Below, in pieces: positions 1-18,265 of a DNA stretch of 44,598 bases. A program made the translations under genes and the position numbers. Origin of the DNA: Candidatus Roizmanbacteria bacterium CG_4_9_14_0_2_um_filter_38_17 (GTDB lineage: Bacteria > Patescibacteriota > Microgenomatia > GCA-00278855); the NCBI GenBank assembly GCA_002788855.1, contig PFSB01000024.1:1-44598 (forward strand). The letters run 5' to 3'. Within the stretch, counting starts at the first letter, position 1. Each line of letters begins with the position of its first letter. The notes under the pieces were generated by a model, which saw only the letters and a list, made by a program, of their open reading frames with translations, was not told where the DNA came from and made no database searches.

Positions 1-153
1 CTTGCTGCAAATTTTAACCCGAGTAACCTTTCCATCTACAAAAACTCGCTTGGTTATAATATTGGGATCAAACGTCCGATTTGTCACTCTGTGAGAGTGG
101 GAAACGTTGTGACCGTATTGCTTAGATTTAGTACAGACCTGACAAATTGCCAT
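1..153 (-). CDS. rpmB: 50S ribosomal protein L28, N-terminal part (runs off the left edge)
   Basis: The reverse strand from 153 to 1 reads 51 codons starting MAICQVCTKSKQYGHNVSHS and continuing through RVFVDGKVTRVKICSK. This matches the L28 pattern: an N-terminal CxxC with a second CxxC expected further on, an SHSxR segment, then a basic V-D-G-x-V-x-R-V strand. L28 is a structural protein of the large ribosomal subunit. The gene is cut by the window edge, so its C-terminal part is not seen. Its ATG (151-153) lies only 18 bases from the divergent M50 start at 172, so its promoter must overlap that gene. Identification is by motif recognition and is firm. Confidence 0.88.
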   Translation of the reverse strand, partial: MAICQVCTKSKQYGHNVSHSHRVTNRTFDPNIITKRVFVDGKVTRVKICSK

Positions 154-171
154 TATGGTAAGATATTATAC

Positions 172-822
172 ATGATCGGAACCTTATTTACCAACCCCTT
201 GTTATTTTTTGGTTGGTTTATAGCGCTAATCGTAGCCATTACTGTTCATGAATTTGCCCATGCCTTTGCGGCTGATCGCCTCGGAGACCCTACTCCCCGG
301 ATTCAAGGACGACTAACCCTCAACCCTTTGAGCCATCTGGATCCTTTAGGAACGCTGATGATTTTATTTGTGAGATTTGGTTGGGGTAAACCAGTGCAGT
401 TTGATCCTTTTAATCTGGAAAATCCCAAACGAGACGCAGCGATAATCTCACTTGCTGGTCCAGCTTCTAATATTGTCTTAGCAGTTATTGCAAGTCTGCT
501 TTTGAGAGTTATTGGCTCAACGTCACCAGTTGTTTTTGTGCTATTGGCCGCAATTCTACAACCAATAATCTTATTAAATATCATCCTTGCAATCTTTAAT
601 CTCATTCCTATTCATCCGCTGGATGGGTTTAAAATAGTAGCAGGACTACTAAACAAGAATCAGTATCGTCAATGGATGGAGCTTCAAAGATACGGTATCT
701 TTATCCTTATTCTGCTACTATTACCTCTAGGTCCCGGTGGTCCTTTTATCCAAGGATTAATTAGTGGACCAATTAAGTTTCTGGTTAACATACTTATCCC
801 ATCTTCAATTCAGCTGATTTAA
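172..822 (+). CDS. M50 family site-2 protease (membrane zinc metalloprotease)
   Basis: A polytopic membrane protein of 216 residues. The zinc-binding HEFAH motif lies at residues 26-30 within the first membrane segment, and the second conserved motif NLIPIHPLDG ends at D151 and supplies the third metal ligand. An NPLSHLDPLG stretch lies between them. This is the short YwhC/FtsH-like type of site-2 protease without a PDZ domain, which cleaves membrane proteins within the bilayer; the substrate is unknown. The frame is open back to 91 (GTG), but that would overlap the divergent rpmB start, so ATG 172 is preferred. No gene partner is evident. Confidence 0.88.
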   Translation: MIGTLFTNPLLFFGWFIALIVAITVHEFAHAFAADRLGDPTPRIQGRLTLNPLSHLDPLGTLMILFVRFGWGKPVQFDPFNLENPKRDAAIISLAGPASNIVLAVIASLLLRVIGSTSPVVFVLLAAILQPIILLNIILAIFNLIPIHPLDGFKIVAGLLNKNQYRQWMELQRYGIFILILLLLPLGPGGPFIQGLISGPIKFLVNILIPSSIQLI

Positions 823-851: not shown

Positions 852-1955
852 ATGACAAAGGATAATATTGTGCTGGGTATTACGCTAGTTTTTTTGGTTA
901 TTACGCTGCCACTAGTACTTTTAGTTACACAGGGAAGGATTGATCTCCGGCCCCGCGCAGGATTTGGCAACGCTACTCTCTCGTTTAACCCTGGATCTCC
1001 CAATGTTAGTGTTGGAGGGGAAACTGTAATAACTTTAAAAGTTGATACTGGAGATAAATTATTATCTGGAGTTGATATATCATTAATATATGATGCAGAC
1101 AAAATCGAGATTGTAGAGATTACATCCGCGAGCTACTTTGATACTCCCCTACACGTCGAAAAAAACCTTCCAACAAATACAGCTCCCTTTAGTGCAATGC
1201 AGATAATTCTGGTACGAAAGACTGCCACCTTCGAACTTGGGTCGGGAGATAGAGAGATTGCGACTATAAAAGTTAAGGGTAAAACTCTTGGGGCTTCTCC
1301 ATTTGTAATGCGGCCAAAAGAAATAGTTGCCTATAATGCAACTGGAAATGATTCGCTATTAACACCACAGGGAAGCCTTGCAACGCAGGTAAACGTAGTC
1401 GAAACTCCACCTTCAGGCAGTGAGCCAATTATTAGTTTTTTAACAAAATTAGCTCGCACTTCAAACGATAAAGCCTTGCCAGATATAACAGTTAAACTAA
1501 CTGTCGTTGACCAGCTACCCACTACTCCAGTTTCTAAAGTATTTGAGGTGCCACTGACAGTTGGTCAAAATCATGTTTATCGTCTGACAAGACCACCTCT
1601 AACGCTTACAGGTGTTATACCTGGCTTAAAGAAGACCATATTACTTAAAGGACCAAAACATATACGTATTAAAGTGGCCGATCAAATTGAGCTTAAACCG
1701 GGAGTTAATCCAGAATTTGACTGGACGGCAATTGCAAAACAATTGCCACCCGGAGATTTGCCTGATCCCGATCAGGATTATCGGCAAAATGGTGCTATTG
1801 ACGCAAGAGATGTCTTTTTAATGAAGCACCGTATCGGCTCAAAAAGTACCGTGGATGTGATGGTGGCTGATTTGAATTATGATGGAGTTGTATCTGCCTA
1901 TGATCTGGACACTCTATTTAGATCGTCGGCTACTTATTATGATGACGAGAACTAG
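852..1955 (+). CDS. Membrane-anchored cohesin-domain protein with C-terminal dockerin
   Basis: A 367-residue protein with an N-terminal signal anchor (residues about 5-27). A cohesin-type beta domain follows (about 40-180; start NATLSFNPGSPNVSVGGETVITLKV split over strands, then GVDISLIYDADKIEI), then an unassigned beta-rich stretch. At the C-terminus is a dockerin-like pair of Ca-binding loops: one degenerate (QNGAIDARDVFLMK) and one good (DLNYDGVVSAYDLDTLF). Carrying both modules, it could accept one dockerin and itself dock to another cohesin. It is the first gene of the locus. ATG 852 is chosen because an extended -10 box ends 8 bases before it; the frame is open to a GTG at 834. Its last 17 bases overlap the next gene. 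Module calls rest on motifs, not on a profile search. Confidence 0.75.
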   Translation: MTKDNIVLGITLVFLVITLPLVLLVTQGRIDLRPRAGFGNATLSFNPGSPNVSVGGETVITLKVDTGDKLLSGVDISLIYDADKIEIVEITSASYFDTPLHVEKNLPTNTAPFSAMQIILVRKTATFELGSGDREIATIKVKGKTLGASPFVMRPKEIVAYNATGNDSLLTPQGSLATQVNVVETPPSGSEPIISFLTKLARTSNDKALPDITVKLTVVDQLPTTPVSKVFEVPLTVGQNHVYRLTRPPLTLTGVIPGLKKTILLKGPKHIRIKVADQIELKPGVNPEFDWTAIAKQLPPGDLPDPDQDYRQNGAIDARDVFLMKHRIGSKSTVDVMVADLNYDGVVSAYDLDTLFRSSATYYDDEN

Positions 1956-2544
1956 AAAATTTATTGTTGTAGGGGGCTTGGCTTTAGTAGTTAATCTAGC
2001 TCTGGTTGGTTATCTGTATAAGGGAAGTAATAAAGAAGATGAGGTTTTGAAGAATGTTAAGATCATCAGACCAAATACAAGATCTAATATACCACCTACT
2101 GGTCCTAATCGGCCGACCAAACGCTTGGCAACGTTTACGCTGGAATCTGACCTAACCTCAACTACGGTTGGAGGAACTGTTACAGTAAAAATTAAGTTAA
2201 ATTCACCAGAACTTTTACTGGGCGCTGATGCAATTATTACTTATGATCCAGCGATATTAGGAGTAAAAAAGATCAAAAGTGGCGACATGTTTCCTAATTA
2301 TCCCCGTATTTTAAGTGAACCGACAAAGTCAAGAATAGTGGTAACAGGGGTTAATATTGATCAAAGTGAGCAAAATAGCGATTTGTTTGCAGTGGTTGAG
2401 TTTGTTGGGCTTAAAGCTGAGTCTTCAAGTATTAGTTTTGTGCATGAAATAAGCGATGAAAAAAGTGGCTCGACAGCAATTAGCGTGGCAAGTGGCAAAA
2501 ATATTTTAACAAATGTAGAGGATCTTTTAATATTGGTACAATAG
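1939..2544 (+). CDS. Membrane-anchored cohesin-domain protein
   Basis: A 201-residue protein with an N-terminal Arg/Lys-rich start (MMTRTRKF), one membrane segment (about residues 9-27), a polar Pro-rich spacer and one cohesin-type domain (about 65-200). Hallmarks of the domain are TFTLESDLTSTTVGGTVTVK-like first strands, LGADAIITYDPAILGV, and a late strand AVVEFVGLKAE. No dockerin or C-terminal anchor is visible, so the cohesin would be displayed from an N-terminal anchor. The start at 1939 (ATG ATG) overlaps the end of the upstream gene by 17 bases, which suggests translational coupling; upstream in-frame codons belong to the previous gene's dockerin region. Function is inferred from module type. 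Confidence 0.72.
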   Translation: MMTRTRKFIVVGGLALVVNLALVGYLYKGSNKEDEVLKNVKIIRPNTRSNIPPTGPNRPTKRLATFTLESDLTSTTVGGTVTVKIKLNSPELLLGADAIITYDPAILGVKKIKSGDMFPNYPRILSEPTKSRIVVTGVNIDQSEQNSDLFAVVEFVGLKAESSSISFVHEISDEKSGSTAISVASGKNILTNVEDLLILVQ

Positions 2545-2557
2545 ATATAGGTAAACT

Positions 2558-3223
2558 ATGAAACATATGAAAAAGTTTAGACATACTCACTTAAGGCAAG
2601 ACCTTGTGAGTTTTGTTTCGCTTATGCTTGTGGTGTTGGCTCTGGTCTTAGCTAGGCCTGGTGCTGTTTCGGCGGCGACCCTTTCTTTAAGTCCGCAAGC
2701 TAGGCTTATTAAGCCTGGGGAAACTTTTTCCGTTGATGTGTTGATCAATACTAAGGGTGAGAGTGTTACATTTGCCGATGTCTATTTTACACATGATAAA
2801 ACCTTGCTTGAAGCTATTACTGTAACTAATGGAACATTTTTTCCTAATACTTATCATGTGCTCACTCCGGGTGAGCCCTACTTAAGCGGTGCATTATCTC
2901 AAACTGGTGAATCATATACAGGGACGGGTAAAGTTGCCACAATTACATTTAAAGCATTAAAGGAGGGTGTGGATACTATGGCCTTTAAATGTGCACCAGG
3001 AAAAACTGCGGATACTAATATTGCCCGTCTTAGTGATGGCGCTGATATTGTTGAATGTTCAGCGCTGGTCAACGGAGTGTATACCATCTCTAATTCTGGT
3101 ACTCCAGGCGCGCCCACCCCTACTCCCAATTCACTCCCGCAGGCAGGGAGCATCAATAATACGCTAATGTTTGCTGGCTTAGGCATTTTATTGACAATTG
3201 TGGGGATAATAGTTATCCTTTAG
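2558..3223 (+). CDS. Secreted cohesin-domain protein with LPxxG-type C-terminal anchor
   Basis: A 221-residue protein with a long signal peptide ending near VSAATL (about residue 40). A cohesin-type domain follows (about 41-175; LSLSPQARLIKPGETFSVDVLIN split over strands, then FADVYFTHDKTLLEA and GTGKVATITFKAL), then a Pro-Thr linker. It ends with LPQAG and a hydrophobic segment that reaches the C-terminus. This resembles a sortase sorting signal, except that the basic tail normally found after the membrane segment is missing. The n/h region of the signal peptide is partly encoded by a deleted copy of the 49-nt hairpin element (2589-2622). A -10 box TG-G-TACAAT lies upstream, so it may also have its own transcript. 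Confidence 0.75.
   Translation: MKHMKKFRHTHLRQDLVSFVSLMLVVLALVLARPGAVSAATLSLSPQARLIKPGETFSVDVLINTKGESVTFADVYFTHDKTLLEAITVTNGTFFPNTYHVLTPGEPYLSGALSQTGESYTGTGKVATITFKALKEGVDTMAFKCAPGKTADTNIARLSDGADIVECSALVNGVYTISNSGTPGAPTPTPNSLPQAGSINNTLMFAGLGILLTIVGIIVIL
2589..2622 (+). repeat. Internally deleted copy of the 49-nt hairpin element, inside a signal peptide
   Basis: ACTTAAGGCAAGAC (2589-2602) and TTGTTTCGCT (2613-2622) match both ends of the 49-nt element at 12455-12503, but the loop and second stem arm are gone. It encodes the LRQDLVSF part of the cohesin protein's signal peptide. Confidence 0.55.
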
Positions 3224-3229
3224 ATAGGT

Positions 3230-3772
3230 ATGGGTGGCAATGCAAAAAACTTGTTTATGGTAGTGGGGTTCTTAGTTGCCTTGGTTCTTTTGGTATTTGG
3301 ATTAAATGAGTTACGTGGAGTTTTGGTGGGAGCAGAAAGTAAATTACAACCCTCGGGGGTTGATACAACAGGAATAACGAGTAATTCCGCTATTATAAAT
3401 TTTGCAACCGCAAAACCGGTCTTTTCGCGAATAATCTATGGTTCAGATCCTCAACAATTATCGTTATTTTCGGTGGAGACAGACCAGACCGATACTCACG
3501 GCGTAACTTTGTCATTCTTGTCACCAAATACAACTTATTACTATAAGATTCGAATTGGAGAAAAAGAGCATGACAATAACGGGCAACCATACAGCTTTAC
3601 AACTAGACCTGCAGAGACAGGGCCTGGTGGTATAACTGGAAATCAGCTTGAGAATCTAGATCCAGATATATTTAAGCAAAAATTTGGCTCTAATGATGCG
3701 GAATATGATGTAAATCAAGATGGGGTTGTAAACACCACAGACTACCTTCTTTACCTGCAGAAAACTCAATAA
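3230..3772 (+). CDS. Membrane-anchored fibronectin-III-like protein with C-terminal dockerin
   Basis: A 180-residue protein with an N-terminal membrane segment (about residues 8-30) and a fibronectin type III-like domain (about 42-128). The domain shows the pattern seen before phosphatase domains: ITSNSAIINFAT, a conserved YGSDPQQL, and LSPNTTYYYKIRI. At the end is a dockerin-like module (about 145-180; PDIFKQKFG, then the Ca-loop DVNQDGVVNTTDYLLYL). Only the second loop is canonical. It begins 6 bases after the previous gene, so it is probably co-transcribed. It would present a dockerin, able to bind one of the neighbouring cohesins. The domain assignment is by eye. Confidence 0.72.
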   Translation: MGGNAKNLFMVVGFLVALVLLVFGLNELRGVLVGAESKLQPSGVDTTGITSNSAIINFATAKPVFSRIIYGSDPQQLSLFSVETDQTDTHGVTLSFLSPNTTYYYKIRIGEKEHDNNGQPYSFTTRPAETGPGGITGNQLENLDPDIFKQKFGSNDAEYDVNQDGVVNTTDYLLYLQKTQ

Positions 3773-3792
3773 TTCGTCAAGCTATGCTTGAC

Positions 3793-3821
3793 TTGACATT
3801 CGCTTATCCATATTTTAAGAT
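3793..3821 (+). promoter_or_regulatory. Consensus promoter for the 6S-like RNA
   Basis: TTGACA (3793-3798), a 17-base spacer and TAAGAT (3816-3821). The predicted start at 3828-3829 coincides with the first base of the long closing stem of the downstream RNA. Confidence 0.65.
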
Positions 3822-3827
3822 AACTTA

Positions 3828-4024
3828 TAACTCTGCTTATAGAGTAAAGGATATAGGGGAAATTTTCTCTATATATTTATTGGCATAAGGGAGAGTGTAA
3901 TGTTCTTCAAGGATACTCGGATATCCTTCTAGAAAAGTGTAGCAGGGTTTTGGCCTTGCCGCCAGCTCACCCACTTAATCTATCCGAGGAAATTGTCTAT
4001 ATCCGTCTTAAGCAGAGTTTTTTT
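3828..4024 (+). ncRNA. ssrS: Structured small RNA, 6S RNA-like
   Basis: The region lacks a convincing reading frame but folds as a rod. AACTCTGCTTA (3829-3839) pairs with TAAGCAGAGTT (4009-4019), GGATATA (3849-3855) with TATATCC (3998-4004), and AATTTTCT (3861-3868) with AGGAAATT (3987-3994). A large bubble follows (3869-3888 against 3973-3986), then GGGxGAG/CTCxCCC (3889-3895 with 3966-3972), and apical hairpins (AAGGATA/TATCCTT at 3909-3928 and GCAGGG/CCTTGC at 3942-3960). A T run at 4018-4024 and a consensus promoter bracket it. A closing stem plus a central bubble and a length near 190 nt are the signature of 6S RNA, the RNA polymerase-binding regulator. The gene symbol is provisional; another structured RNA or leader is possible. 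Confidence 0.55.
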
Positions 4025-4033
4025 GTGGAAACA

Positions 4034-4042
4034 TGGTATGCT
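4034..4042 (+). promoter_or_regulatory. Extended -10 promoter of the small dockerin gene
   Basis: TG-G-TATGCT with the hexamer at 4037-4042, followed by 7 bases and ATG at 4050. It overlaps the region just after the 6S-like RNA's T run, so transcription of the next gene is probably independent of the RNA. Confidence 0.5.
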
Positions 4043-4049
4043 TAAGATA

Positions 4050-4352
4050 ATGAGTGGTCGTCAGATATTTATTATTATATTGGTAGTACTTGTTGGTGTG
4101 GGTGGAATTGCGGTTGGATATTTTGCCCCGCGCATTGGGCAAAATCCCTCCACAAGCGCGGCAGAATCCCAGACCTTTCCAACTATTCCCGTGTTTGAGG
4201 ACCAACCAGCCAGCGCTGAACCAGCAAGTGATGAGGATTATTTATTCATGACTAAGTTTGAAAATAAGGATCCTTCCGCTGATCTTGATGGGTCTGGTCA
4301 AGTAAACACCCTAGATTTAGCTAAGTATAGGCAACTTAAAAATGAAAAGTAG
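4050..4352 (+). CDS. Small membrane-anchored dockerin-like protein
   Basis: A 100-residue protein with a membrane segment near the N-terminus (about residues 6-25), a polar linker rich in Pro, Ser and Ala, and a C-terminal dockerin-like module. The module is one degenerate half (EDYLFMTKF) followed by a canonical Ca-binding loop (DLDGSGQVNTLDLAKY). Nothing else is present, so its role may be simply to present a dockerin at the surface. The frame is open upstream, but a start there would lie inside the 6S-like RNA; ATG 4050 sits 7 bases after an extended -10 box. The end overlaps the next cohesin gene by 11 bases, which suggests the two are made together. Confidence 0.65.
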   Translation: MSGRQIFIIILVVLVGVGGIAVGYFAPRIGQNPSTSAAESQTFPTIPVFEDQPASAEPASDEDYLFMTKFENKDPSADLDGSGQVNTLDLAKYRQLKNEK

Positions 4353-4971
4353 TTTATGTTGCTTTCTGATTTTATTTTTCATGCTTTTTGTTGGGGTTGG
4401 AAAGATACAAGCGGCAAAGCTCATAATTGATCCCCCTACTGGCACCTACGCGGTTGGTCAACAGTTTCAATCAAAGATTACTTTGGATACTGAAGAAGCT
4501 GCCACCGCTGGTGTGGATGTGCTATTAAAATATAATCCAGCAATACTAAAAATAACCAATGTTCAAAATGGTGAGATATTTAGTCAATACATAAGTCAAA
4601 AGATAGATAATGACAAAGGTTCACTTAGTTTGTCTGGTATTGTAGCTCTGGATGATGCAAAAGGATATACCGGAAACGGAACATTTGCTACAGTAGTATT
4701 TGAAGGAATTGCTGTTGGCGCAGCTAGTGTGGACTTTGATTTCTCACCAGGGGTCAGGAGCGATTCAAATGTTGCAGCCATGAGCTCAGTTGACGATAGT
4801 TTATCATCAGCATCCGGAGCTAATTACTCGATAATAGCAGCACAATCCAAAGGTGGCCTAACCGAAGCAACTCCCACAGCACTCCCTAAATCTGGAGTAA
4901 TCGAAGATACCCTAAAACTAGTTGGCTCTGGCTTAAGCCTAATCCTCCTCTCCCTCCTCTTCCTCCTCTAA
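4342..4971 (+). CDS. Secreted cohesin-domain protein with LPKSG C-terminal anchor
   Basis: A 209-residue protein with a signal peptide (cleavage near QAAKL, about residue 25), then one cohesin-type domain (about 25-165). The domain shows LIIDPPTGTYAVGQQFQSKI, GVDVLLKYNPAILKI, and GNGTFATVVFEGIA. A short Thr-Pro spacer and LPKSG follow, then a hydrophobic C-terminal segment with no basic tail. It is the same architecture as the protein at 2558-3223. Overlap with the small dockerin gene (11 bases) pairs a cohesin and a dockerin in one transcript. The sorting-like signal needs a sortase or similar enzyme, none of which is in the window. Confidence 0.75.
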   Translation: MKSSLCCFLILFFMLFVGVGKIQAAKLIIDPPTGTYAVGQQFQSKITLDTEEAATAGVDVLLKYNPAILKITNVQNGEIFSQYISQKIDNDKGSLSLSGIVALDDAKGYTGNGTFATVVFEGIAVGAASVDFDFSPGVRSDSNVAAMSSVDDSLSSASGANYSIIAAQSKGGLTEATPTALPKSGVIEDTLKLVGSGLSLILLSLLFLL

Positions 4972-4973
4972 CC

Positions 4974-4997
4974 TACAGGGTCAAACCCTGCAAGTTC
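4974..4997. repeat. REP family 1 palindrome upstream of RAYT1
   Basis: CAGGGT-CAA-ACCCTG (4976-4990) followed by CAAGTTC. An identical copy with the same tail lies inside RAYT1 (5468-5490); other copies are at 30253-30318 and 36938-36960, and a one-mismatch copy is at 37384-37398. Confidence 0.8.
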
Positions 4998-5006
4998 ATT
5001 TTGATA

Positions 5007-5015
5007 TGATATACT
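5007..5015 (+). promoter_or_regulatory. Extended -10 promoter of RAYT1
   Basis: TG-A-TATACT with the hexamer at 5010-5015; ATG follows after 6 bases. Confidence 0.5.
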
Positions 5016-5021
5016 CGTATT

Positions 5022-5672
5022 ATGCCAGCCAAAAATCGCATTAGACAGTACATAGAAGACAGCTCATATCACTGCTATAATAGAGGTGTTGAGAAGAGGC
5101 AAATATTCCTAGATAAGCAAGATTATTCGGTATTTTTATCATATTTAAAGGATTATTTATCCCCCATTGATAGTGCGGATATTAAGTCAAGAATATCAAG
5201 TAGAGTGAAAAATTATTCTGATGACTTATCCCTACTTGCTTATTGTTTAATGCCTAATCATTTTCATTTAATGCTCCATCAACAGACTAAAGACGGAATT
5301 AGATATTTTATGCAATCTCTATCAACGCGTTATACTATGTACTTTAATACTAAATATAAGAGGGTTGGGTCATTATTTCAAGGCACTTATAAAGCGGCTC
5401 TCATACTAACTGATGAGCAACTCATCTATTTATCGTATTATATCCACCACCAGGCCACCCTTGACTTACAGGGTCAAACCCTGCAAGTTCAAAGACCAAG
5501 TTCTCTACCTAATTATCTAGGTCATATTAAACAAAATTGGGTTAAACCAGATAAAGTGTTAGCATGGTTTAATACATCCCAATCCTCAATAAATAGCTAC
5601 AGTGATTTCATTTATGATATTGGCAGTAAGAAAAACATCGTTAGCCCTATTGAAGACATTCTGCTAGACTGA
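5022..5672 (+). CDS. RAYT1: REP-associated tyrosine transposase (Y1_Tnp, IS200-like)
   Basis: A 216-residue single-domain Y1 transposase. It has the early YNRGVEK motif (about residue 20), the HUH metal motif in YCLMPNHFHLML (HFH, about residues 85-87) and a candidate catalytic Tyr in the RYTMYFNTKY helix. Such enzymes nick and join single-stranded DNA at REP hairpins. Its cognate palindrome appears to be family 1: one copy lies 25 bases upstream and an identical copy lies inside the gene, where it encodes LQGQTLQV. This RAYT lacks the palindrome at the stop codon seen for RAYT2-4. It is the most divergent of the four from the MRRK-type pair (RAYT2/3). Confidence 0.9.
   Translation: MPAKNRIRQYIEDSSYHCYNRGVEKRQIFLDKQDYSVFLSYLKDYLSPIDSADIKSRISSRVKNYSDDLSLLAYCLMPNHFHLMLHQQTKDGIRYFMQSLSTRYTMYFNTKYKRVGSLFQGTYKAALILTDEQLIYLSYYIHHQATLDLQGQTLQVQRPSSLPNYLGHIKQNWVKPDKVLAWFNTSQSSINSYSDFIYDIGSKKNIVSPIEDILLD
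5468..5490. repeat. REP family 1 palindrome within the RAYT1 coding sequence
   Basis: The 23 bases ACAGGGTCAA…CAAGTTC repeat the upstream copy at 4975-4997 exactly, in frame inside the transposase. Confidence 0.8.
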
Positions 5673-5709
5673 TTTATTTCCTACTTGCAGGCGGAACGGA
5701 CCCTGTGTG

Positions 5710-5781
5710 AGCCAGCAGGAGGATTCGAACCCCCGACCTGTCGCTTACAAAGCGAATGCTCTACCACTGAGCTATGCTGGC
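5710..5781 (-). tRNA. tRNA-Thr (anticodon UGU)
   Basis: The reverse strand forms a full cloverleaf. The acceptor GCCAGCA/TGCTGGC pairs 7 of 7, the D-arm is GCTC…GAGC-like, and the anticodon loop TTTGTAA gives UGU, which reads ACA (Thr). The T-arm is GGGGG-TTCGAAT-CCTCC. The first anticodon-stem pair is a T-C mismatch. The discriminator base is T, and CCA is not encoded, so it must be added. Confidence 0.92.
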
Positions 5782-5837
5782 CGCTTAAGCTAAATTTTAC
5801 TATAGATTATAGCTAGATACTACTGGGACTGGCTCAC

Positions 5838-8231
5838 TTACCTCCACCAATTTTGGGTGTTTCTAGGCTCCATGAAACTACCCGTATCGCGGATTGTGAA
5901 TTTAACTTCGGTTTCCTTTGACCTACCAAATGCCTGACCAGCTTTAAGCGCTGGTAGTCTTACTCTGGCGCCACCACCCTGGTTTGAAGCCGTATATAAT
6001 GCAAGTAGCCGAGGTTCTACGCATACATCTAAAACATGGAGCACATATCCAGTGGCTGCTGTATCTTCGCCCTTATAACTAAGCATGATACTGTTATCAT
6101 CCGCATAAAGCACCATCACCTCGTATCCTGATGTTATCTCATATCCTGAATCTGGAACTTTTAAGACCTCTCCTTTTGTTACCAGAGTACCTAGGAGTTG
6201 AACCTCTGGTGGTGCTGAATACAACCCACCTTTACTCCCTATATTATCTCCTGCACCCCAGTTCCAGTCATACATCTGATAAGTTCCGGAAACTTGTGGT
6301 ATGCGATTATCTGCAAAAAGTCCCTTTAATTGCGGAGGCGTATTGGGATCTGGGTCGGCAGATGGGCCCATGTCATATATTTCTTTTCTAGCATTGGGTA
6401 CAGCTTCCCAGCCACGCAGAGCAATGTTGTAGTCTGGATGTCCTGAAATAGCTCTTGTTTCTGGACTGCCGTTTATTGATAAGGTTTCATAACTCTCCCC
6501 CTCAATAGTCCCCGCAGTTCCACAGGCGGTGCCTGGGTTAACCACAAAGCTATGTTTGCGCCAGATCTCAAAGTCGGCAAGAGTTACATATCCTGGGCTC
6601 GCCGCATTATCCAGTGAACAGTCAAGGTCACCTGTTCGAGCTGTACCTTCAAGCTGTACCCCTCCCCTGTATTGATCATACTGATCTCTCCAGATATTGT
6701 AATCCTCATCATTTATTGCTCCATTACAGTTAACGTCTCCTGCGTCGCAAGTTGCTGGACATACATTGTCTATTCTTGTCGGGGTAGGTGCTTCAGGTGG
6801 AAGTTGAACTGATGTGGGCGTAGGGGTAGGAGTGGGCGTATTAGCTGTACCTGTGGGTGTGGGAGTAGGATCTCCGGTATTAATTGCTAAGAGAGCTGCT
6901 TGGGCATTAATTAATTTTCCTATTGGTTGATCGGTAGATATGGTAGTTCCAGTATCTTTGAGGATAGTCTCAATTTGAGCTGGAGTTAGACCACTATTCA
7001 CCCCAAGCATAAGCGCAACCAAGCCTGCAACGTGCGGCGCGGCCATACTGGTTCCCGCAGATAATGCATATTCGTTAGATAACCAGGTTGAGATAATACA
7101 GTCGGTTCCATTAGCATTGCAGTCATAGCTACTGCCCGAAGGTACACTAGGATTTCCCCCGGGGGCAGCAACATCCACCAGACTGCCGTAATTTGAATAG
7201 CGCGCCCTCTCACTATCTGGCCCTAAGGCCCCCACAGCTATAACATTTTGACAGTTTGCTGGAAAGTAGCCAGCCGAGTCATTATGTTCATTCCCCGCAG
7301 CTACAACAACTGTAATATTTCTTTCCACAGCTGAATTGATGGCATTTTGTAAAGCTTGAGGACAAGTTCCTTCCCCGTCTAAGCTTAGATTAATAATGTT
7401 TGCTTGATTTGAATCTGCAATGGAATTTATACTTTCAATGACATTAGTCAGGTCACCAGTTCCTCCACTATTTAAAACCTTAACAGCTAATATCTGAGCA
7501 TCCCAGCTCACTCCAGCTACTCCTTTCTGATTGTTCGTGGCAGCTCCAATAATGCCTGCTACATGGGTTCCATGTCCCATATCGTCCATTGGGTCATTAT
7601 CATTATTAATATAATCCCTGCCCTTAATAATCTTTGAACTATCTATATCTTCGTGATTATAGTTAACCCCACTGTCTAATACTGCCACTTTAATCTTGCC
7701 ACTAGTCTTATTAGTTTCCCAGGCTGTCTCCATGTTCATCTTAGATAAACTCCACTGATTAGGATAGAATGTATCATTTGGTGCGGCGGCGGCATAAACA
7801 TACCTATTTGGTTCGGCGGTTTCTATAATGTCTGCTTGACGAAAAGCTACTGCTGCAAGTGCTGGTGAGATAGCTTCTGTTGATTTCATCAAGTAGTAAT
7901 CCCCTATTATTTTCTCCTGAACAACATTAAGGCTATCTTCAATGCTCTCAAGCTCTTTAAGTACTTCAGGTGGAAGTGCTTGGCCTTGGTTGCGGAGCTG
8001 AATAGTTTTTAACCGATTAATGGCTTGGCCTATCAATTGGTCTTCATTCTCACTCCAGCTAGCTGCTTTAGCACGAATTTGGTCTGGATTATGATCTGGT
8101 TTGTACTGAACGATATATTCTCCGGGCACTATGGTTGGCTTATCGTCAATCCTTGCAACTTGAGCAAATGTTCTCTGAGGGATAAGCAAAACAATGGCAA
8201 CAAAACCAACAACTGTAAGTAATAATCGCAT
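5838..8231 (-). CDS. Secreted subtilisin-like serine protease with dockerin and C-terminal beta domain
   Basis: A 797-residue exported S8 peptidase. Signal peptide at 1-24; propeptide-like stretch to about 150; catalytic domain about 155-450 with the triad D186 (AVLDSG), H220 (GHGTHVAG) and S395 (GTSMAAPH), and oxyanion N314 (AAGNEH). A Thr-Pro linker (about 454-485) leads to a dockerin-like module (about 490-560; DVNCNGAINDEDYNIW and DLDCSL…VTLADFEIW). A 220-residue C-terminal domain follows (DYNIALRGW, GYEVMVLYA, VCVEPRLLALY, RDTGSFMEPR), with repeated Gly-rich strands that recall M23/LytM-like folds. ATG 8231 follows a TG-G-TATTGT box by 6 bases. The dockerin makes it the obvious cargo for the cohesins at 852-4971. 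Confidence 0.87.
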   Translation of the reverse strand: MRLLLTVVGFVAIVLLIPQRTFAQVARIDDKPTIVPGEYIVQYKPDHNPDQIRAKAASWSENEDQLIGQAINRLKTIQLRNQGQALPPEVLKELESIEDSLNVVQEKIIGDYYLMKSTEAISPALAAVAFRQADIIETAEPNRYVYAAAAPNDTFYPNQWSLSKMNMETAWETNKTSGKIKVAVLDSGVNYNHEDIDSSKIIKGRDYINNDNDPMDDMGHGTHVAGIIGAATNNQKGVAGVSWDAQILAVKVLNSGGTGDLTNVIESINSIADSNQANIINLSLDGEGTCPQALQNAINSAVERNITVVVAAGNEHNDSAGYFPANCQNVIAVGALGPDSERARYSNYGSLVDVAAPGGNPSVPSGSSYDCNANGTDCIISTWLSNEYALSAGTSMAAPHVAGLVALMLGVNSGLTPAQIETILKDTGTTISTDQPIGKLINAQAALLAINTGDPTPTPTGTANTPTPTPTPTSVQLPPEAPTPTRIDNVCPATCDAGDVNCNGAINDEDYNIWRDQYDQYRGGVQLEGTARTGDLDCSLDNAASPGYVTLADFEIWRKHSFVVNPGTACGTAGTIEGESYETLSINGSPETRAISGHPDYNIALRGWEAVPNARKEIYDMGPSADPDPNTPPQLKGLFADNRIPQVSGTYQMYDWNWGAGDNIGSKGGLYSAPPEVQLLGTLVTKGEVLKVPDSGYEITSGYEVMVLYADDNSIMLSYKGEDTAATGYVLHVLDVCVEPRLLALYTASNQGGGARVRLPALKAGQAFGRSKETEVKFTIRDTGSFMEPRNTQNWWR

Positions 8232-8334: not shown

Positions 8335-8355
8335 TTTTAAAACCCGGTTTTAAAA
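8335..8355. repeat. REP family 2 palindrome at the 3' end of a CDS
   Basis: Ten-base arms TTTTAAAACC / GGTTTTAAAA around one base. On the reverse strand it encodes the last residues and the TAA stop of the gene at 8337-8651. Confidence 0.85.
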
Positions 8356-8651
8356 CTTTTTAGGGAGCCAAGACCTAGTAAGAATATCACTCCCCCGCCA
8401 AAAATTAAAAGTGCTGGAGTAGTGGTGTTTCCTGATCTGGGTAGCTCAGGGATGGGTGTGTTGGCTGGTGGAAGGGTTGGGTTGGTTGGATTGGTTGGCG
8501 GAATGGGCGTATTTGTAGGAGGAACGATAGTTGCCGCGCACGTTGGTCCAAATTCCCCTTCAGCACTACTACAGATTACTTGAGCGCTCACTGGCTGGCT
8601 GGCTGTAAATAATAATAAGTTTGCAATAACTATGATTAGGACAGTTTTCAT
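8337..8651 (-). CDS. Small secreted Pro-Thr-rich protein with LPRSG C-terminal anchor
   Basis: A 104-residue protein with a signal peptide (about residues 1-24, ending SAQ), a short Cys-containing region, a Thr/Pro/Asn linker made of PPTNP- and NTPIP-like units, then LPRSG, a hydrophobic segment and a tail SLKSFKTGF. The final FKTGF and the stop are encoded by an inserted family 2 palindrome, so the original C-terminus was probably different. Apart from the anchor it has little globular content, so it may be a wall or surface spacer. ATG 8651 is chosen because TG-C-TATATT ends 6 bases before it; the frame is open upstream to 8723. Confidence 0.62.
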   Translation of the reverse strand: MKTVLIIVIANLLLFTASQPVSAQVICSSAEGEFGPTCAATIVPPTNTPIPPTNPTNPTLPPANTPIPELPRSGNTTTPALLIFGGGVIFLLGLGSLKSFKTGF

Positions 8652-8671
8652 ATAACTAATATAGCACATAT

Positions 8672-10330
8672 CTATTCTCCAGGGAAACCCTGACTTAGCA
8701 CCTGGAAGTTGGCAAAGGTACAACCATCTGGTGGAAGATCATCCACAGGGAAGAAAGTTCCAAGCTGAAGACTGTCAGCGCCTGTTGGTACAACTGGTAT
8801 AGTTGATTGACCAGTTACTTGTTGACTTGAGCTGCTTCTGCCAATTAGCCAGTTAAAAAAGCGGGCAAAGATATTGCTCCTATCGCTTGCCTGAGCAACC
8901 CTAATCTCAGTTGAAAATGCTAGGTGTTTTAGCCTACAAAATAATCCATTTGTTTCATTCCCATTTGTTGCGTCAATCTTATATACCCCAATCGCACTGT
9001 CTAAATTGGGTATTGTGTAGGTGCCGTCTACTTTATATACTTCAACCTGCTTTCCTTCTCTAGTCTGAATTCCTACTAGAGCAGCCATGGTTTCAATAGG
9101 TCCGGCAACTCGAACATTATCCTTGTATATTGAATAGACAATACGTGTTACCTTAGTCGGATAGCTGGCTGGATTACCATAAGGATCAGTGTAGGCAAAT
9201 ATTGTAAAGTTTACAACTTCACCTTTTTTGACCACTTTTGGATCAGGAGCTGTAACGTCTATTCCATCGCAATGGCAATCAGATAATGGTGGGGTGGGGG
9301 TGGGAGGAGGCTGACAGATATTACCATTACCACCAGGTAAGCATGCGCCACACTCTTCGGGGCACTGAGGTGAAGCTGGATTACAAGGACTTCCACACTG
9401 AGGTGGCAATGTAGGTGTTAGGGTGGCTGTAGGTGTGGCAATTGGAGTGGGCGTTGGAGTGGCAGGTGGCTGACAAACATTAGTCCCATTCCCATCTGGC
9501 TGGCAGGATGAGCACTCCAGTGGACAGATAGGGTTGGTTGGGTCACAGGTATCTCCACACTGTGGAGACTCACAAGTAAGGCTGTTTGGATAAGTTTGCA
9601 AACGGCATCTGTTTTCATCAGGAAGAATAGGACTATGTCCAGGATTTACAAGTGTACAGACTTCTCCCGTATTACAGGCTAATCCATCATTTGGGTCACA
9701 GATTTGATTACAGGTTATTCTTGGAGTGGGTGTTGGGGTAGCTATAGGTGGTAATACATATACCCAGTCAATCCAGATATCTGTTGCGTTGTTATTTAAA
9801 ATAGCAGTTGCAACAGCGCGTTTATTTGAAACATCAGAGATTGAGTCTGGACTCGGTAAAAGTCCCGTTATTTGCTGATATGTCTCTGGATGCGCTGGGT
9901 CACCGCCTCGTTCAAACGGATCATATGAGCTCTGCTCGCTTGGATTCTTACTAAGATCAATAAAGCCAATATGAGTAATATTGCCTGCTCCTGCAGGTCT
10001 TCGTACAGATGTTGACCAGGTACCACCGGCTGGTAAATTAGCTGGAGTCTGAAGTTCTAGATGTGACTGTCCTTGGCAAGATATAAGAGCTGCACTAGCT
10101 ATACCACTTGAATTGGTTATGGCGTTATCTTGCCCTAACCAGCCTTGACTGGTTGTAGCCCAGTATTTTACTTCTGCCCCATTAATAGGGACTTTTGAGC
10201 CATCAGAATATTGAATGTTAACTGTTATATTTGCAACGACAGTTCCACCAGCATAAACTGGCTCTGGAGCACTAGCAAATAGTATGCCCGATGTAATTAG
10301 TGAAATACAAACTAAAAATACTTTATTCAT
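8672..10330 (-). CDS. Large secreted Cys-rich, Thr-Pro-linker protein of unknown function
   Basis: A 552-residue protein with a signal peptide (about 1-28) and an N-terminal domain (about 28-200) that begins like an Ig-type or carboxypeptidase-regulatory beta fold (VNIQYSDGSKVPINGAEVKYWA). Three Thr-Pro linkers separate similar Cys-rich units (CGDTCDPTNPICPLECSSC and CGSPCNPASPQCPEECGAC), then a beta-rich C-terminal domain (about 365-552). Near the end is SLQLGTFFP, similar to SLQLGTFQP in the protein at 12896-14644, so a short C-terminal motif is shared. The start overlaps the upstream gene by 8 bases, indicating an operon with 10323-11183. No enzymatic motif is recognised. Confidence 0.6.
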   Translation of the reverse strand: MNKVFLVCISLITSGILFASAPEPVYAGGTVVANITVNIQYSDGSKVPINGAEVKYWATTSQGWLGQDNAITNSSGIASAALISCQGQSHLELQTPANLPAGGTWSTSVRRPAGAGNITHIGFIDLSKNPSEQSSYDPFERGGDPAHPETYQQITGLLPSPDSISDVSNKRAVATAILNNNATDIWIDWVYVLPPIATPTPTPRITCNQICDPNDGLACNTGEVCTLVNPGHSPILPDENRCRLQTYPNSLTCESPQCGDTCDPTNPICPLECSSCQPDGNGTNVCQPPATPTPTPIATPTATLTPTLPPQCGSPCNPASPQCPEECGACLPGGNGNICQPPPTPTPPLSDCHCDGIDVTAPDPKVVKKGEVVNFTIFAYTDPYGNPASYPTKVTRIVYSIYKDNVRVAGPIETMAALVGIQTREGKQVEVYKVDGTYTIPNLDSAIGVYKIDATNGNETNGLFCRLKHLAFSTEIRVAQASDRSNIFARFFNWLIGRSSSSQQVTGQSTIPVVPTGADSLQLGTFFPVDDLPPDGCTFANFQVLSQGFPGE

Positions 10331-11183
10331 TACTTTTACTCCATTCGGAAAAACTTTGTGTATAGCCATCAACTTTATCATCCAATACAAAAATCATGTA
10401 ATAGCCGTTCTGCTCCTCAGAATTAAAATAGCTTTCCGGGTATTGGTCTTTAGGGCCTGGGTAGCGAACAATTTCTGAAACCTGGCGATTTTTACCCAGA
10501 GTCATTTTTTGCAAAGTTGCCAGATATAAACTGTCCGACGTAAGGCGCCAAGCTACTTGTTTGTCGAATGTAAAACCCGTATTAAATTTACCATTCCAGT
10601 CAAGCTTGGCAACGTCTGGGTGTTGGGCTAGCGCAGCTATTGCTGTGCTTGGCTGCATTTGGCCACTTATAATTCGCTCCCTAATTGCCGTCATAAGCTC
10701 TAGTGCCTTGCTATCGGCTTGGTCAAATGTCAGCTGGTCAGCTGGCTTTTGGTTGTAGAAAAAGACGTTTATAATCGCCCCTTGAACCTGCATGCTTTGC
10801 TTCTCATACTCCTCTTCTGCTTGGCTAATAAACTTTTGGCGCTCGGCATTATTAATGGGTGTTTTATCAGAGAAGTAATCCGCAGGTACCTCGACTAGTC
10901 CCTCTTGTACTGCATCCTGAAGAATCTTAGACTCTTTGGAAACTTGATCTAAAATCTCAGCCTCTGTGCGGTCATATTGGATTTTCTTAATCGCAGAAAT
11001 ATCAGTGCTTAAAATATTGTCTTCACCAACGGTCTTTAGAACTTCACTTTTTTCTCGATTAAGCAGTAATAAAGCACCAATGGTAATTATCAAAATAATA
11101 AGCCCCACGAGCATGATTTTCTGAAACTTAGTTAGATTTTTTAGTTTGTCTAGAATAAGAATCAATCTGGACGAATTATCCAT
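10323..11183 (-). CDS. Membrane-anchored extracytoplasmic protein, weakly PpiC/SurA-like
   Basis: A 286-residue protein with one N-terminal membrane segment (about residues 20-42) and a helical, charged extracytoplasmic domain. The order of elements suggests a degenerate parvulin-type fold: a helical stretch with SKESKILQDAVQEGLVEVP, then TFDQADSKALELMTAIRERI, a GKFNTGFTF turn and YYMIFVLDDKVDGY near the end. If so, it would act as a chaperone or foldase for the secreted protein encoded next (8-base overlap). The catalytic pattern of active parvulins is not clear, so this is a weak similarity only. ATG 11183 follows TG-C-TATAGT by 8 bases. Confidence 0.5.
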   Translation of the reverse strand: MDNSSRLILILDKLKNLTKFQKIMLVGLIILIITIGALLLLNREKSEVLKTVGEDNILSTDISAIKKIQYDRTEAEILDQVSKESKILQDAVQEGLVEVPADYFSDKTPINNAERQKFISQAEEEYEKQSMQVQGAIINVFFYNQKPADQLTFDQADSKALELMTAIRERIISGQMQPSTAIAALAQHPDVAKLDWNGKFNTGFTFDKQVAWRLTSDSLYLATLQKMTLGKNRQVSEIVRYPGPKDQYPESYFNSEEQNGYYMIFVLDDKVDGYTQSFSEWSKSNE

Positions 11184-12895: not shown

Positions 12896-14644
12896 TTATT
12901 TGCTTTCTATATCCTTGGCTATCCCCTCTTCACAGGTTCCATTTAAGAGGATTCCTCCCCAGTCAACGGCGGTAAATCCGGATCTTTTAAGGTTGCCGGT
13001 AAGTATTGGCGCTTGTGCTGGCTGGCTAACGTTAAGTGCTTCAAATACAAAGCGCAACCTTATAAAATTATCTGGTTCTTGGCTAAACTGAATTTCCTCT
13101 ACTTTATCTAGCTGTTCTCGATCGAGTAGTCCTATATAGTAGTATGGGGAGTCTGTAGGTAAACTATGAAACAAAAGCTTTGGCACCCAGTAGGACATAA
13201 AGTCTGTTTGCTCCTGTTTATTTAAGCCAAGCTTGGGAAGCAGGTCTTTAAAAAACCTATCAAGCTCGCCTACTTCTACCACCCAGCCTTCTTTAGGTAC
13301 TTTTATTTTTTCAATATTAGCTTCATAAAAAAGATAAGGATAGTCTTTTCCCAGGGATTGAATTTTTCCTGATGGGTTGGCAGTTACGTCCCAGCCGGAT
13401 GTTGGATAAGAAGGTATAGATTTAGTTAGATTGCCTTGCGGGATCACTTTAACATTAAGATCTGTTGTTACTTCGGGATAGAGATAGATGGCTGGTTTAC
13501 AGGCTGGCGTCCACCATTCGTAGGCAAAACCAGTGGCTGGTTGAAATGTTCCTAATTGAAGTGAACTTCCCTGTGGTATGTCTCTGTTTACAAGCTCATT
13601 ATAATTATAGTAAGGAATAGAACCATCTTGATTGACTAATGTTAAAATCGCTCCCGTTGTGAGGTAATAGACATCATACTTTGACTGATATGTACCCACG
13701 AGCACAGACGCTGTTCCGTCTGGTGGTATATCCATAATATTGGCGAAGATCAGAGCATCAGGTATTTGAGCAACGATTTGCGGGTCGGCTGTGGCTGAAA
13801 TAGTAATATTTTCTTTATTAATGAAATTTGGCTGACCTCCAAGGGCAGCAGCTCCAATAGCTTGAGCACCTATTACGTCTTGATCGACTAGGCATTCTCC
13901 TGTATCTAGATATTTCTCCCATACTCTTTTGCGCTCATTTCCCCAGATATCACCTATTCCACAAGCTAATTTAGCCCAGCATGGAATAAATTCATCAGAT
14001 ACTTCTGCCGGAGCTCCGACCTCATCAACAAACTTATCTGCTCGAACATATACATTAAACAGCCACCAATACCCGGGTTCATCCTTACATTCTTCGTCTA
14101 TTATATCTGGTGTTCTATCACCATCTATATCCGTTCCCCAACTCTCATTAGCGCAAGATGGCCACTCTAGATCCCCCGGACTTGGTCCGGCGGTTGTGGG
14201 AATAAATACTGCGTCCTGGGTTACGGGATCTTTACAGTCTGGATCAGTATCTTTATTTGCTTGGTCGCAGTGCCCTATTCCTAGCCAGACTTCTTTTCCA
14301 TCTGCATCTAGGTTCGGTAGTTGTCCTACAATTGGCACCGATAATCCAATTACCCCCATCTCTGCGTCTACTCCAGCATTATTTCCTTTAACTTTCCAAC
14401 CAGGTATTCCTGCATCTTTTTTTACTAGCACCCACTCAACCGGCAATCCCTTATCATTATGAATCTCTTGACCAACTGACACATTAATACCCAGACGAAC
14501 ATCACTTTCCACCCTAGGCGCACAGGAGCCACCTGATACATACTGATCAATTTTGTCTTTATCTGGAAATAGATTAATTAGACCCGTGGAGCCTGCAAAA
14601 AAGAGACCTGTTATAACTATAGCTAACCAGGAAAGTAATCCCAT
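12896..14644 (-). CDS. Exported protein with C-terminal CKPAIYLYPE-type domain
   Basis: A 582-residue protein with an N-terminal membrane segment (about 3-22), a long Cys-containing extracytoplasmic region (about 35-260, including an acidic DIDGDRTPDIIDEE loop that could bind calcium), a middle beta region with SLQLGTFQP, and a C-terminal domain starting CKPAIYLYPE and running through SGWDVTANPSG and YPYLFYEA. The CKP-x-IYLYPE domain is a recurring family in Patescibacteria and some other bacteria as far as I recall, with no firmly known function. ATG 14644 follows TG-T-TATTCT by 8 bases. It is divergent from secE and transcribed alone. Confidence 0.65.
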   Translation of the reverse strand: MGLLSWLAIVITGLFFAGSTGLINLFPDKDKIDQYVSGGSCAPRVESDVRLGINVSVGQEIHNDKGLPVEWVLVKKDAGIPGWKVKGNNAGVDAEMGVIGLSVPIVGQLPNLDADGKEVWLGIGHCDQANKDTDPDCKDPVTQDAVFIPTTAGPSPGDLEWPSCANESWGTDIDGDRTPDIIDEECKDEPGYWWLFNVYVRADKFVDEVGAPAEVSDEFIPCWAKLACGIGDIWGNERKRVWEKYLDTGECLVDQDVIGAQAIGAAALGGQPNFINKENITISATADPQIVAQIPDALIFANIMDIPPDGTASVLVGTYQSKYDVYYLTTGAILTLVNQDGSIPYYNYNELVNRDIPQGSSLQLGTFQPATGFAYEWWTPACKPAIYLYPEVTTDLNVKVIPQGNLTKSIPSYPTSGWDVTANPSGKIQSLGKDYPYLFYEANIEKIKVPKEGWVVEVGELDRFFKDLLPKLGLNKQEQTDFMSYWVPKLLFHSLPTDSPYYYIGLLDREQLDKVEEIQFSQEPDNFIRLRFVFEALNVSQPAQAPILTGNLKRSGFTAVDWGGILLNGTCEEGIAKDIESK

Positions 14645-17539: not shown

Positions 17540-17569
17540 TAAGTTTTGAAATAATGTTATACTTTGGTT

Positions 17570-18265
17570 ATGCGGAGGAAGACCGACTTTGCTACAGGAT
17601 CGATCTATCATATCTACAATCGAGGGATACGCAAAAGCGAAATATTCACTACGCGAGCTGACTACCTTCGATGGCAGGAATTGCTCTACTGGACTGCTAA
17701 CTATAATTATCCGTATAGTTTATTTGAAGATCGTAAGACAAAGTTAGAAATATCAAGTGGAGAGACAGAGCCTTTAATAGGGCAAATTGACAAAATGTAT
17801 AAGCTGGAAACTCCCCTGGTTAAAATCCTGAGCTTTGTTAGCATGCCTAATCACTATCATCTTCTCCTTGAACAGTCTACTAAACATGGCGTCCAAAAGT
17901 ATATGCAAAGATTACAAGCTGCGTACTCTAAATATTTTAACTTGAAATATGAACTGATTGGTTCAGTATTCCAAGGCAGGTTTCAGGATGTTCCTGTTAT
18001 AAGCGAACCACAATTCCTGCAGGTTCAAAAATATATTTTACGAAACCCTCTAGTTGCAAAATTAGTCAGTAAGAAAATGTTTTTAAACTATCCATGGTCA
18101 GCGATTCGTGAATATCTTAATCCAAACTTACGAAAAATTATCACATATGAGCGTATACCATCGTTCTTTTCTGATCCAAATAAATTAAGCAAGTTTCTTT
18201 TAGATGATTTTTCAGACGAGGAACAACTTTCTCTTGATTCAATTTCCATCGATAGCAAGTTTTAA
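17570..18265 (+). CDS. RAYT2: REP-associated tyrosine transposase
   Basis: A 231-residue Y1 transposase beginning MRRKTDFATGSIYHIYNRG. The HUH motif is in SMPNHYHLLLEQ (HYH, about residues 102-104), and the candidate catalytic Tyr is in AAYSKYFNLKYELIGS. It is a close paralogue of RAYT3 (MRRK start, the same GSIYHxYNRGxRKS block). Family 2 palindromes flank it in inverted orientation, and the right one supplies its stop codon (SKF then TAA). ATG 17570 follows TG-T-TATACT by 6 bases. It sits between rplA and rplJ, so it has entered the ribosomal protein cluster. Confidence 0.9.
   Translation: MRRKTDFATGSIYHIYNRGIRKSEIFTTRADYLRWQELLYWTANYNYPYSLFEDRKTKLEISSGETEPLIGQIDKMYKLETPLVKILSFVSMPNHYHLLLEQSTKHGVQKYMQRLQAAYSKYFNLKYELIGSVFQGRFQDVPVISEPQFLQVQKYILRNPLVAKLVSKKMFLNYPWSAIREYLNPNLRKIITYERIPSFFSDPNKLSKFLLDDFSDEEQLSLDSISIDSKF

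Follow-up and report, generated by a model that had tools for sequence, protein, structure and literature searches.

The window analysed here, a stretch of 44,598 nucleotides, constitutes contig 24 of a genome that measures 1.09 Mb and is 98.9% complete, in agreement with the small genome proposed in the initial annotation. It also encodes NusG and the ribosomal proteins L11, L1 and L10, and is thus an ordinary chromosomal contig. The cohesin and dockerin genes are encoded on the positive strand. In brief, the first gene (852-1955) encodes an adaptor-type protein with an N-terminal transmembrane (TM) segment, a cohesin (approximately 963-1409), an Ig-like X-type module and a two-loop dockerin (approximately 1770-1928). 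Cohesin A (1939-2544) has an N-terminal TM anchor and a single cohesin (approximately 2116-2526). Cohesin B (2558-3223) consists of a signal peptide, a cohesin (approximately 2663-3097), an LPQAG motif (3134-3148) and a C-terminal TM segment. The next gene (3230-3772) encodes an FN3-dockerin protein with an N-terminal TM segment, an FN3-like domain of the purple acid phosphatase N-terminal type and a single-loop dockerin (3626-3769). It is followed by a stub (4050-4352) with an N-terminal TM segment and a single-loop dockerin-like end (4224-4349), without the FN3 domain, and by a second cohesin B (4342-4971) with a signal peptide, a cohesin (approximately 4402-4839), LPKSG (4882-4896) and a C-terminal TM segment. 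A secreted subtilase is encoded on the negative strand (5838-8231) and has a signal peptide, an S8 domain (6948-7697), a dockerin-like module (6537-6752) and a C-terminal domain (5841-6533). Between the cohesin genes and the subtilase lies an IS200-like (Y1) transposase gene (5022-5672); a second one is found at 17564-18265. Promoter and terminator scans gave results no better than chance.

The initial annotation recorded four cohesin-type domains and proposed searches with cohesin and dockerin profiles; these searches recognised cohesins in genes 852, 1939, 2558 and 4342. Three of them exceed the Pfam cut-off of 24.1 bits for PF00963, namely those of genes 1939 (35.2 bits), 2558 (33.0 bits) and 4342 (29.5 bits; 3.2e-33 with the class profile). 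The cohesin of gene 852 scores below it (17.1 bits) and was recovered by a class-specific profile (2.6e-9; 69 bits) and by fold comparison. A cohesin A profile built from 17 relatives of gene 1939 and a cohesin B profile built from 20 relatives of genes 2558 and 4342 were searched against the whole PDB. Both match almost exclusively cohesins, with best values of 5.4e-10 for cohesin A, where cellulosomal cohesins are included, and 2.4e-6 for cohesin B. The AlphaFold2 model of gene 2558, built on a six-sequence alignment, has a mean pLDDT of 69, with 80-92 in the best-ordered blocks. All of the first 23 Foldseek matches of this model (best E 2.5e-8) are cohesins of solved structure, among them the non-cellulosomal one from Archaeoglobus fulgidus, and target TM-scores of about 0.7 against 6kgf, 2vn5 and 1g1k correspond to the same beta-sandwich fold. 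The model of gene 852 is dependable in the cohesin part only, and this part matches solved cohesins. Given the Pfam scores, the PDB profile matches and the fold model, the cohesin identity in the window is firm. A profile search of the whole genome found six cohesin proteins, with one recognised cohesin each, and about ten dockerin-like proteins.

Sequence identity in the fold matches of gene 2558 to solved cohesins is low (8-23%) and several modules fall under the Pfam cut-off, as would be expected if the cohesin-type domains were plain Ig-like modules of adhesins and the ends resembling dockerins were calcium-binding stalks, with no mutual binding. We consider this improbable, since the profile and fold matches are almost exclusively to cohesins and since cohesins and dockerins strongly co-occur and adjoin each other, as described below.

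The dockerin of gene 852 exceeds the PF00404 cut-off (27.6 bits; 41 bits with the class profile); its first Ca loop is degenerate and its second canonical (DLNYDGVVSAYD). Gene 3230 scores 30.4 bits with PF16656 and 20.5 bits with PF00404, the latter just under the cut-off, and has one canonical loop. The Pfam score of gene 4050 is negligible (12.4 bits, E 0.19), the class profile gives it 19 bits, and its end can be aligned to the single-loop dockerin family of gene 3230. The subtilase has no Pfam dockerin match. Its module is found by the class profile (16 bits, i-E 1.1e-4), with a canonical first loop, DVNCNGAINDED, and a second loop broken by an insertion of about 7 residues; profile-profile comparison gave a probability of 98.4%, a value that is not independent as the query alignment held two clear dockerins. 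The dockerin modules first noted in these four genes thus hold, with the calls for gene 4050 and the subtilase weaker than the rest, and it was correctly seen that several of them have only one canonical Ca loop. Searched against the PDB, the class-wide dockerin profile finds cellulosomal dockerins (best 7.5e-15).

Four or more further genomes encode relatives of gene 3230 that share an N-terminal TM segment, an FN3-like domain, a helix with F..KFG and one loop of the form D.N.DGVVNT.D, and that adjoin cohesin B as a conserved family directly downstream. As this architecture is kept in at least four genomes, and as a metalloprotease of the source genome (see below) ends alike, the single-loop dockerin is not the product of simple decay. 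Two other genomes encode a 3230-type protein with two loops. An alignment search of the genome contigs for FN3-dockerin proteins found three loci only. Most dockerin proteins begin with a TM-like segment, and some may therefore be anchored without any cohesin.

The anchors are as originally described, with an N-terminal TM segment in gene 1939 and LPxxG-type C-terminal tails in genes 2558 (LPQAG-TM) and 4342 (LPKSG-TM). The LPxxG column is conserved, being present in the cohesin B tails of most relatives. Basic residues, which commonly follow the TM segment, are absent from both LPxxG tails in the window and from many tails of relatives. A sortase is encoded in 58 of 59 class genomes, and the source genome has two. 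From the tail sequences, processing of cohesin B by a sortase is plausible; the alternative is a plain C-terminal membrane anchor. We also observed a juxtamembrane motif, I/L-R-x-R/K-A(A), immediately following the N-terminal TM segment, e.g. QGRIDLRPRAG in gene 852. It occurs in 34 of 97 dockerin proteins and 18 of 91 cohesin proteins, compared with 13 of 614 other neighbouring proteins. It is possibly a cleavage or sorting signal, and a few of the matches are due to chance.

The cohesin-dockerin system is not peculiar to the source genome. The class Microgenomates, a CPR lineage, was sampled with 59 genomes, 48 of which encode cohesins and 42 dockerins. Both were mapped in 42 relatives, on 56 regions with a cohesin. 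A dockerin gene on the same strand lies directly beside the cohesin gene at 39 loci, in 33 of the genomes; 17 loci have no adjacent dockerin gene. A membrane-anchored single-cohesin A with, directly after it, a cohesin B that has a C-terminal TM segment and usually an LPxxG-like motif occurs in 19 genomes. The gaps between A and B range from -65 to +21 bases and the genes mostly overlap or abut, where it should be noted that the ORF starts were set mechanically. The upstream neighbour is usually a larger dockerin protein, in many cases built of cohesin, Ig and dockerin modules, and in several genomes an FN3-dockerin protein is encoded downstream. The window follows this gene order, with the stub dockerin and the second cohesin B as additions. 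Outside the class, 177 genomes of the phylum were sampled; a cohesin was found in 48, a dockerin in 64 and both in 36. Dockerins are thus present in 36 of 48 genomes with a cohesin vs 28 of 129 without (Fisher p 1e-10, a value that overstates independence as the genomes are related, though many families are represented). Cohesin and dockerin are at most 3 kb apart in 26 of the 36 genomes holding both. Dozens of relatives share these gene pairings, more than chance would explain; being related, the genomes do not count as independent, although many families show the pattern.

We scanned 88 dockerin proteins of the class for domains. Most have no recognised catalytic domain. Peptidase S8 was found in six and thermolysin M4 in one (in genome G029); further domains are cohesins and FN3 or purple acid phosphatase N-terminal domains, and phosphoesterase, GH39 (two proteins), LRR, VWA and LamG occur in single or few cases. 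The source genome itself encodes three dockerin-bearing proteases. The subtilase in the window has an S8 match (PF00082, 188.4 bits) with the catalytic D, H and S motifs LDSG, GHGTH and GTSMA. Besides the signal peptide no other anchor is seen in its sequence, so the dockerin would be the sole visible means of retaining it. A second subtilase-dockerin is located on contig 5 (approximately 13115-14061; L011 9104-9808 and upstream), beside a cohesin-dockerin gene; it is split over different reading frames and is either a pseudogene or an assembly error. The third is an M11/M6-like metalloprotease (HEIGHNMGAHH) on contig 10 at 36400 (L178 1483-3117), which ends in a single-loop dockerin. In the class, 8 of 25 genomes with a subtilase encode an S8-dockerin protein, and the subtilase-dockerin gene adjoins a cohesin gene in six genomes (the source genome G000, G022, G023, G040, G057 and G058). 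The initial annotation suggested a complex carrying a protease rather than glycosidases. Protease cargo is supported by the three proteins of the source genome and the six class genomes; the exclusive wording is too narrow, because cargo in the class is of several types, of which proteases are only one.

The subtilase lies on the opposite strand past a transposase gene and is without a Pfam dockerin match. This, together with the scarcity of catalytic domains among the dockerin proteins, would also fit a system in which paired cohesins and dockerins link structural adhesins and proteins of the Ig type as a coat on the surface, with the subtilase as a free secreted or self-processing bystander and its EF-hand-like repeat as a calcium stabiliser. 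We find this unlikely, as the subtilases of G022, G040 and G057 have dockerins at or near the Pfam cut-off and are encoded directly beside cohesin genes, and as two further proteases of the source genome bear a dockerin. No Pfam model matches the C-terminal domain of the subtilase, an undescribed surface domain. Proteins that otherwise differ carry it in 19 of 280 class genomes; no dockerin was detected in the proteins with the nine further copies inspected, and the domain gave no functional lead.

We suggest, with a probability of roughly two in three, that the locus encodes a small, non-cellulosomal, cellulosome-like cohesin-dockerin display system for varied cargo, with proteases among it and with binding as the predicted step. 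In this respect family, fold, conservation of the operon and co-occurrence lend good support to the surface assembly put forward at the outset. As predicted from sequence, the single-cohesin anchors would sit on the surface, A (gene 1939) by its N-terminal membrane helix and B (genes 2558 and 4342) by the LPxxG-TM tail at its C-terminus, a probable substrate of one of the two sortases. Calcium-folded dockerins of secreted proteins would then plug into the surface cohesins. For the single-loop dockerins of genes 3230 and 4050 the most likely partner would be the cohesin B beside them, and for the two-loop dockerin of gene 852 either A or B. With cohesin and dockerin in one protein, gene 852 could serve as an adaptor and lengthen the chain. 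The atypical dockerin of the subtilase in the window may keep this enzyme at the surface, which is the weakest step of the proposal, and the other dockerin proteins of the genome, including the M11-like metalloprotease, would be further cargo. Surface-tethered proteolysis and adhesion are the likely use of such a system, and the proteins cleaved may be those of a host, of the environment or of the cell's own surface. A role in contact with a host, as first suggested, is speculative.

The proposed display system resembles the clostridial cellulosome, with CipA and single-cohesin anchoring scaffoldins, in the cohesin fold, the two-loop dockerins, the single-cohesin anchors and the cohesin-X-dockerin adaptor layout. 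The best Foldseek matches of gene 852 are cohesin-X-dockerin fragments of Clostridium thermocellum CipA, with the cohesin part alone reliable; the domain order is that of the CipA fragment, and the model supports neither the X-module nor the dockerin, with a pLDDT below 50 over the latter. Dockerin-bearing S8 peptidases, as well as serpins, are known from cellulosomes (PMC12484212). This likeness to the CipA C-terminus and the two GH39 matches could be taken to mean that the locus is a remnant or an acquired piece of a plant-polysaccharide cellulosome. Such an origin is very improbable, as neither a multi-cohesin primary scaffoldin with a carbohydrate-binding module nor glycosidase cargo is recognised at the locus, and as the operon is widespread in the class and not a recent import. 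The display system further differs from clostridial cellulosomes in being anchored by N-terminal TM or LPxxG-TM segments instead of SLH domains, in its conserved family of half-dockerins and in its mixed cargo.

Cohesin-dockerin modules outside cellulosomes and dockerin-bearing proteases are each already known, separately. Non-cellulosomal modules occur in archaea and other bacteria (Archaeoglobus, ANME), and archaeal pairs have been reported to bind (PMC9012536). Non-cellulolytic partners and proteins with both a dockerin and cohesins are shared with the locus described here, whereas the ANME cargo reported consists of transport binding proteins and S-layer proteins (PMC9012536); the system in the window has instead a repeated compact operon, paired A and B anchors and protease or FN3 cargo. 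Subtilases in which the S8 domain is followed by dockerin repeats, as in the window, are presented as a domain architecture of Halobacterium and others, and the passages that treat them describe no linked cohesin operon (PMC2605481). In Patescibacteria, a cultivated epibiont of the Saccharibacteria has an essential dockerin-domain surface protein, SEML1_0315 (PMC10633639); this organism belongs to another class, the paper mentions no cohesin, and the likeness is one of description. A literature search combining CPR, cohesin and dockerin gave no earlier account of the class-wide operon; most subscription papers were outside its scope, so priority is uncertain.

Patescibacteria (CPR) have genomes of about 1 Mb and few known surface machines, and the ways in which they adhere to other cells and act on them are a central question. 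A wider proposal, to which we give slightly less than even odds, is that Microgenomates possess a dedicated class-wide system of A and B anchors, a cohesin-X-dockerin adaptor and a new family of half-dockerins pairing with B, which holds proteases and adhesins on presumed episymbionts. If display by plug and socket does operate in most sampled class genomes, it would offer a directly testable handle on CPR cell contact; in the rest of the phylum sample, between about a quarter and a third of the genomes have the modules as well. These are small and expected to be calcium dependent, so that pairings could be measured from synthetic genes without cultivation. Cohesin-dockerin biology would then extend to reduced-genome bacteria, with possible new orthogonal pairs for joining proteins.

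Some further observations concern the surroundings of these genes. A site-2-type M50 peptidase is encoded directly upstream of the cohesin genes in the window (91-822), and this family adjoins cohesin genes in four genomes. The region beside the subtilase (8337-10390) encodes two surface proteins, a small one with LPRSG-TM and a cysteine-rich one that is Big_1/invasin-like. In three genomes a sortase gene adjoins a subtilase gene (G006 contig 11, G014 contig 5 and G030 contig 25). One separate cohesin gene site is kept in about six genomes (L082, L085, L104, L114 and similar), beside murJ, hrcA-grpE-dnaK-dnaJ and pilus-assembly-like genes, with gene names read from the sequences. Other classes of the phylum encode tandem arrays of dockerin genes of approximately 600-700 amino acids, or proteins with many dockerins (G123 contig 27, G148 contigs 33 and 36, and G226).
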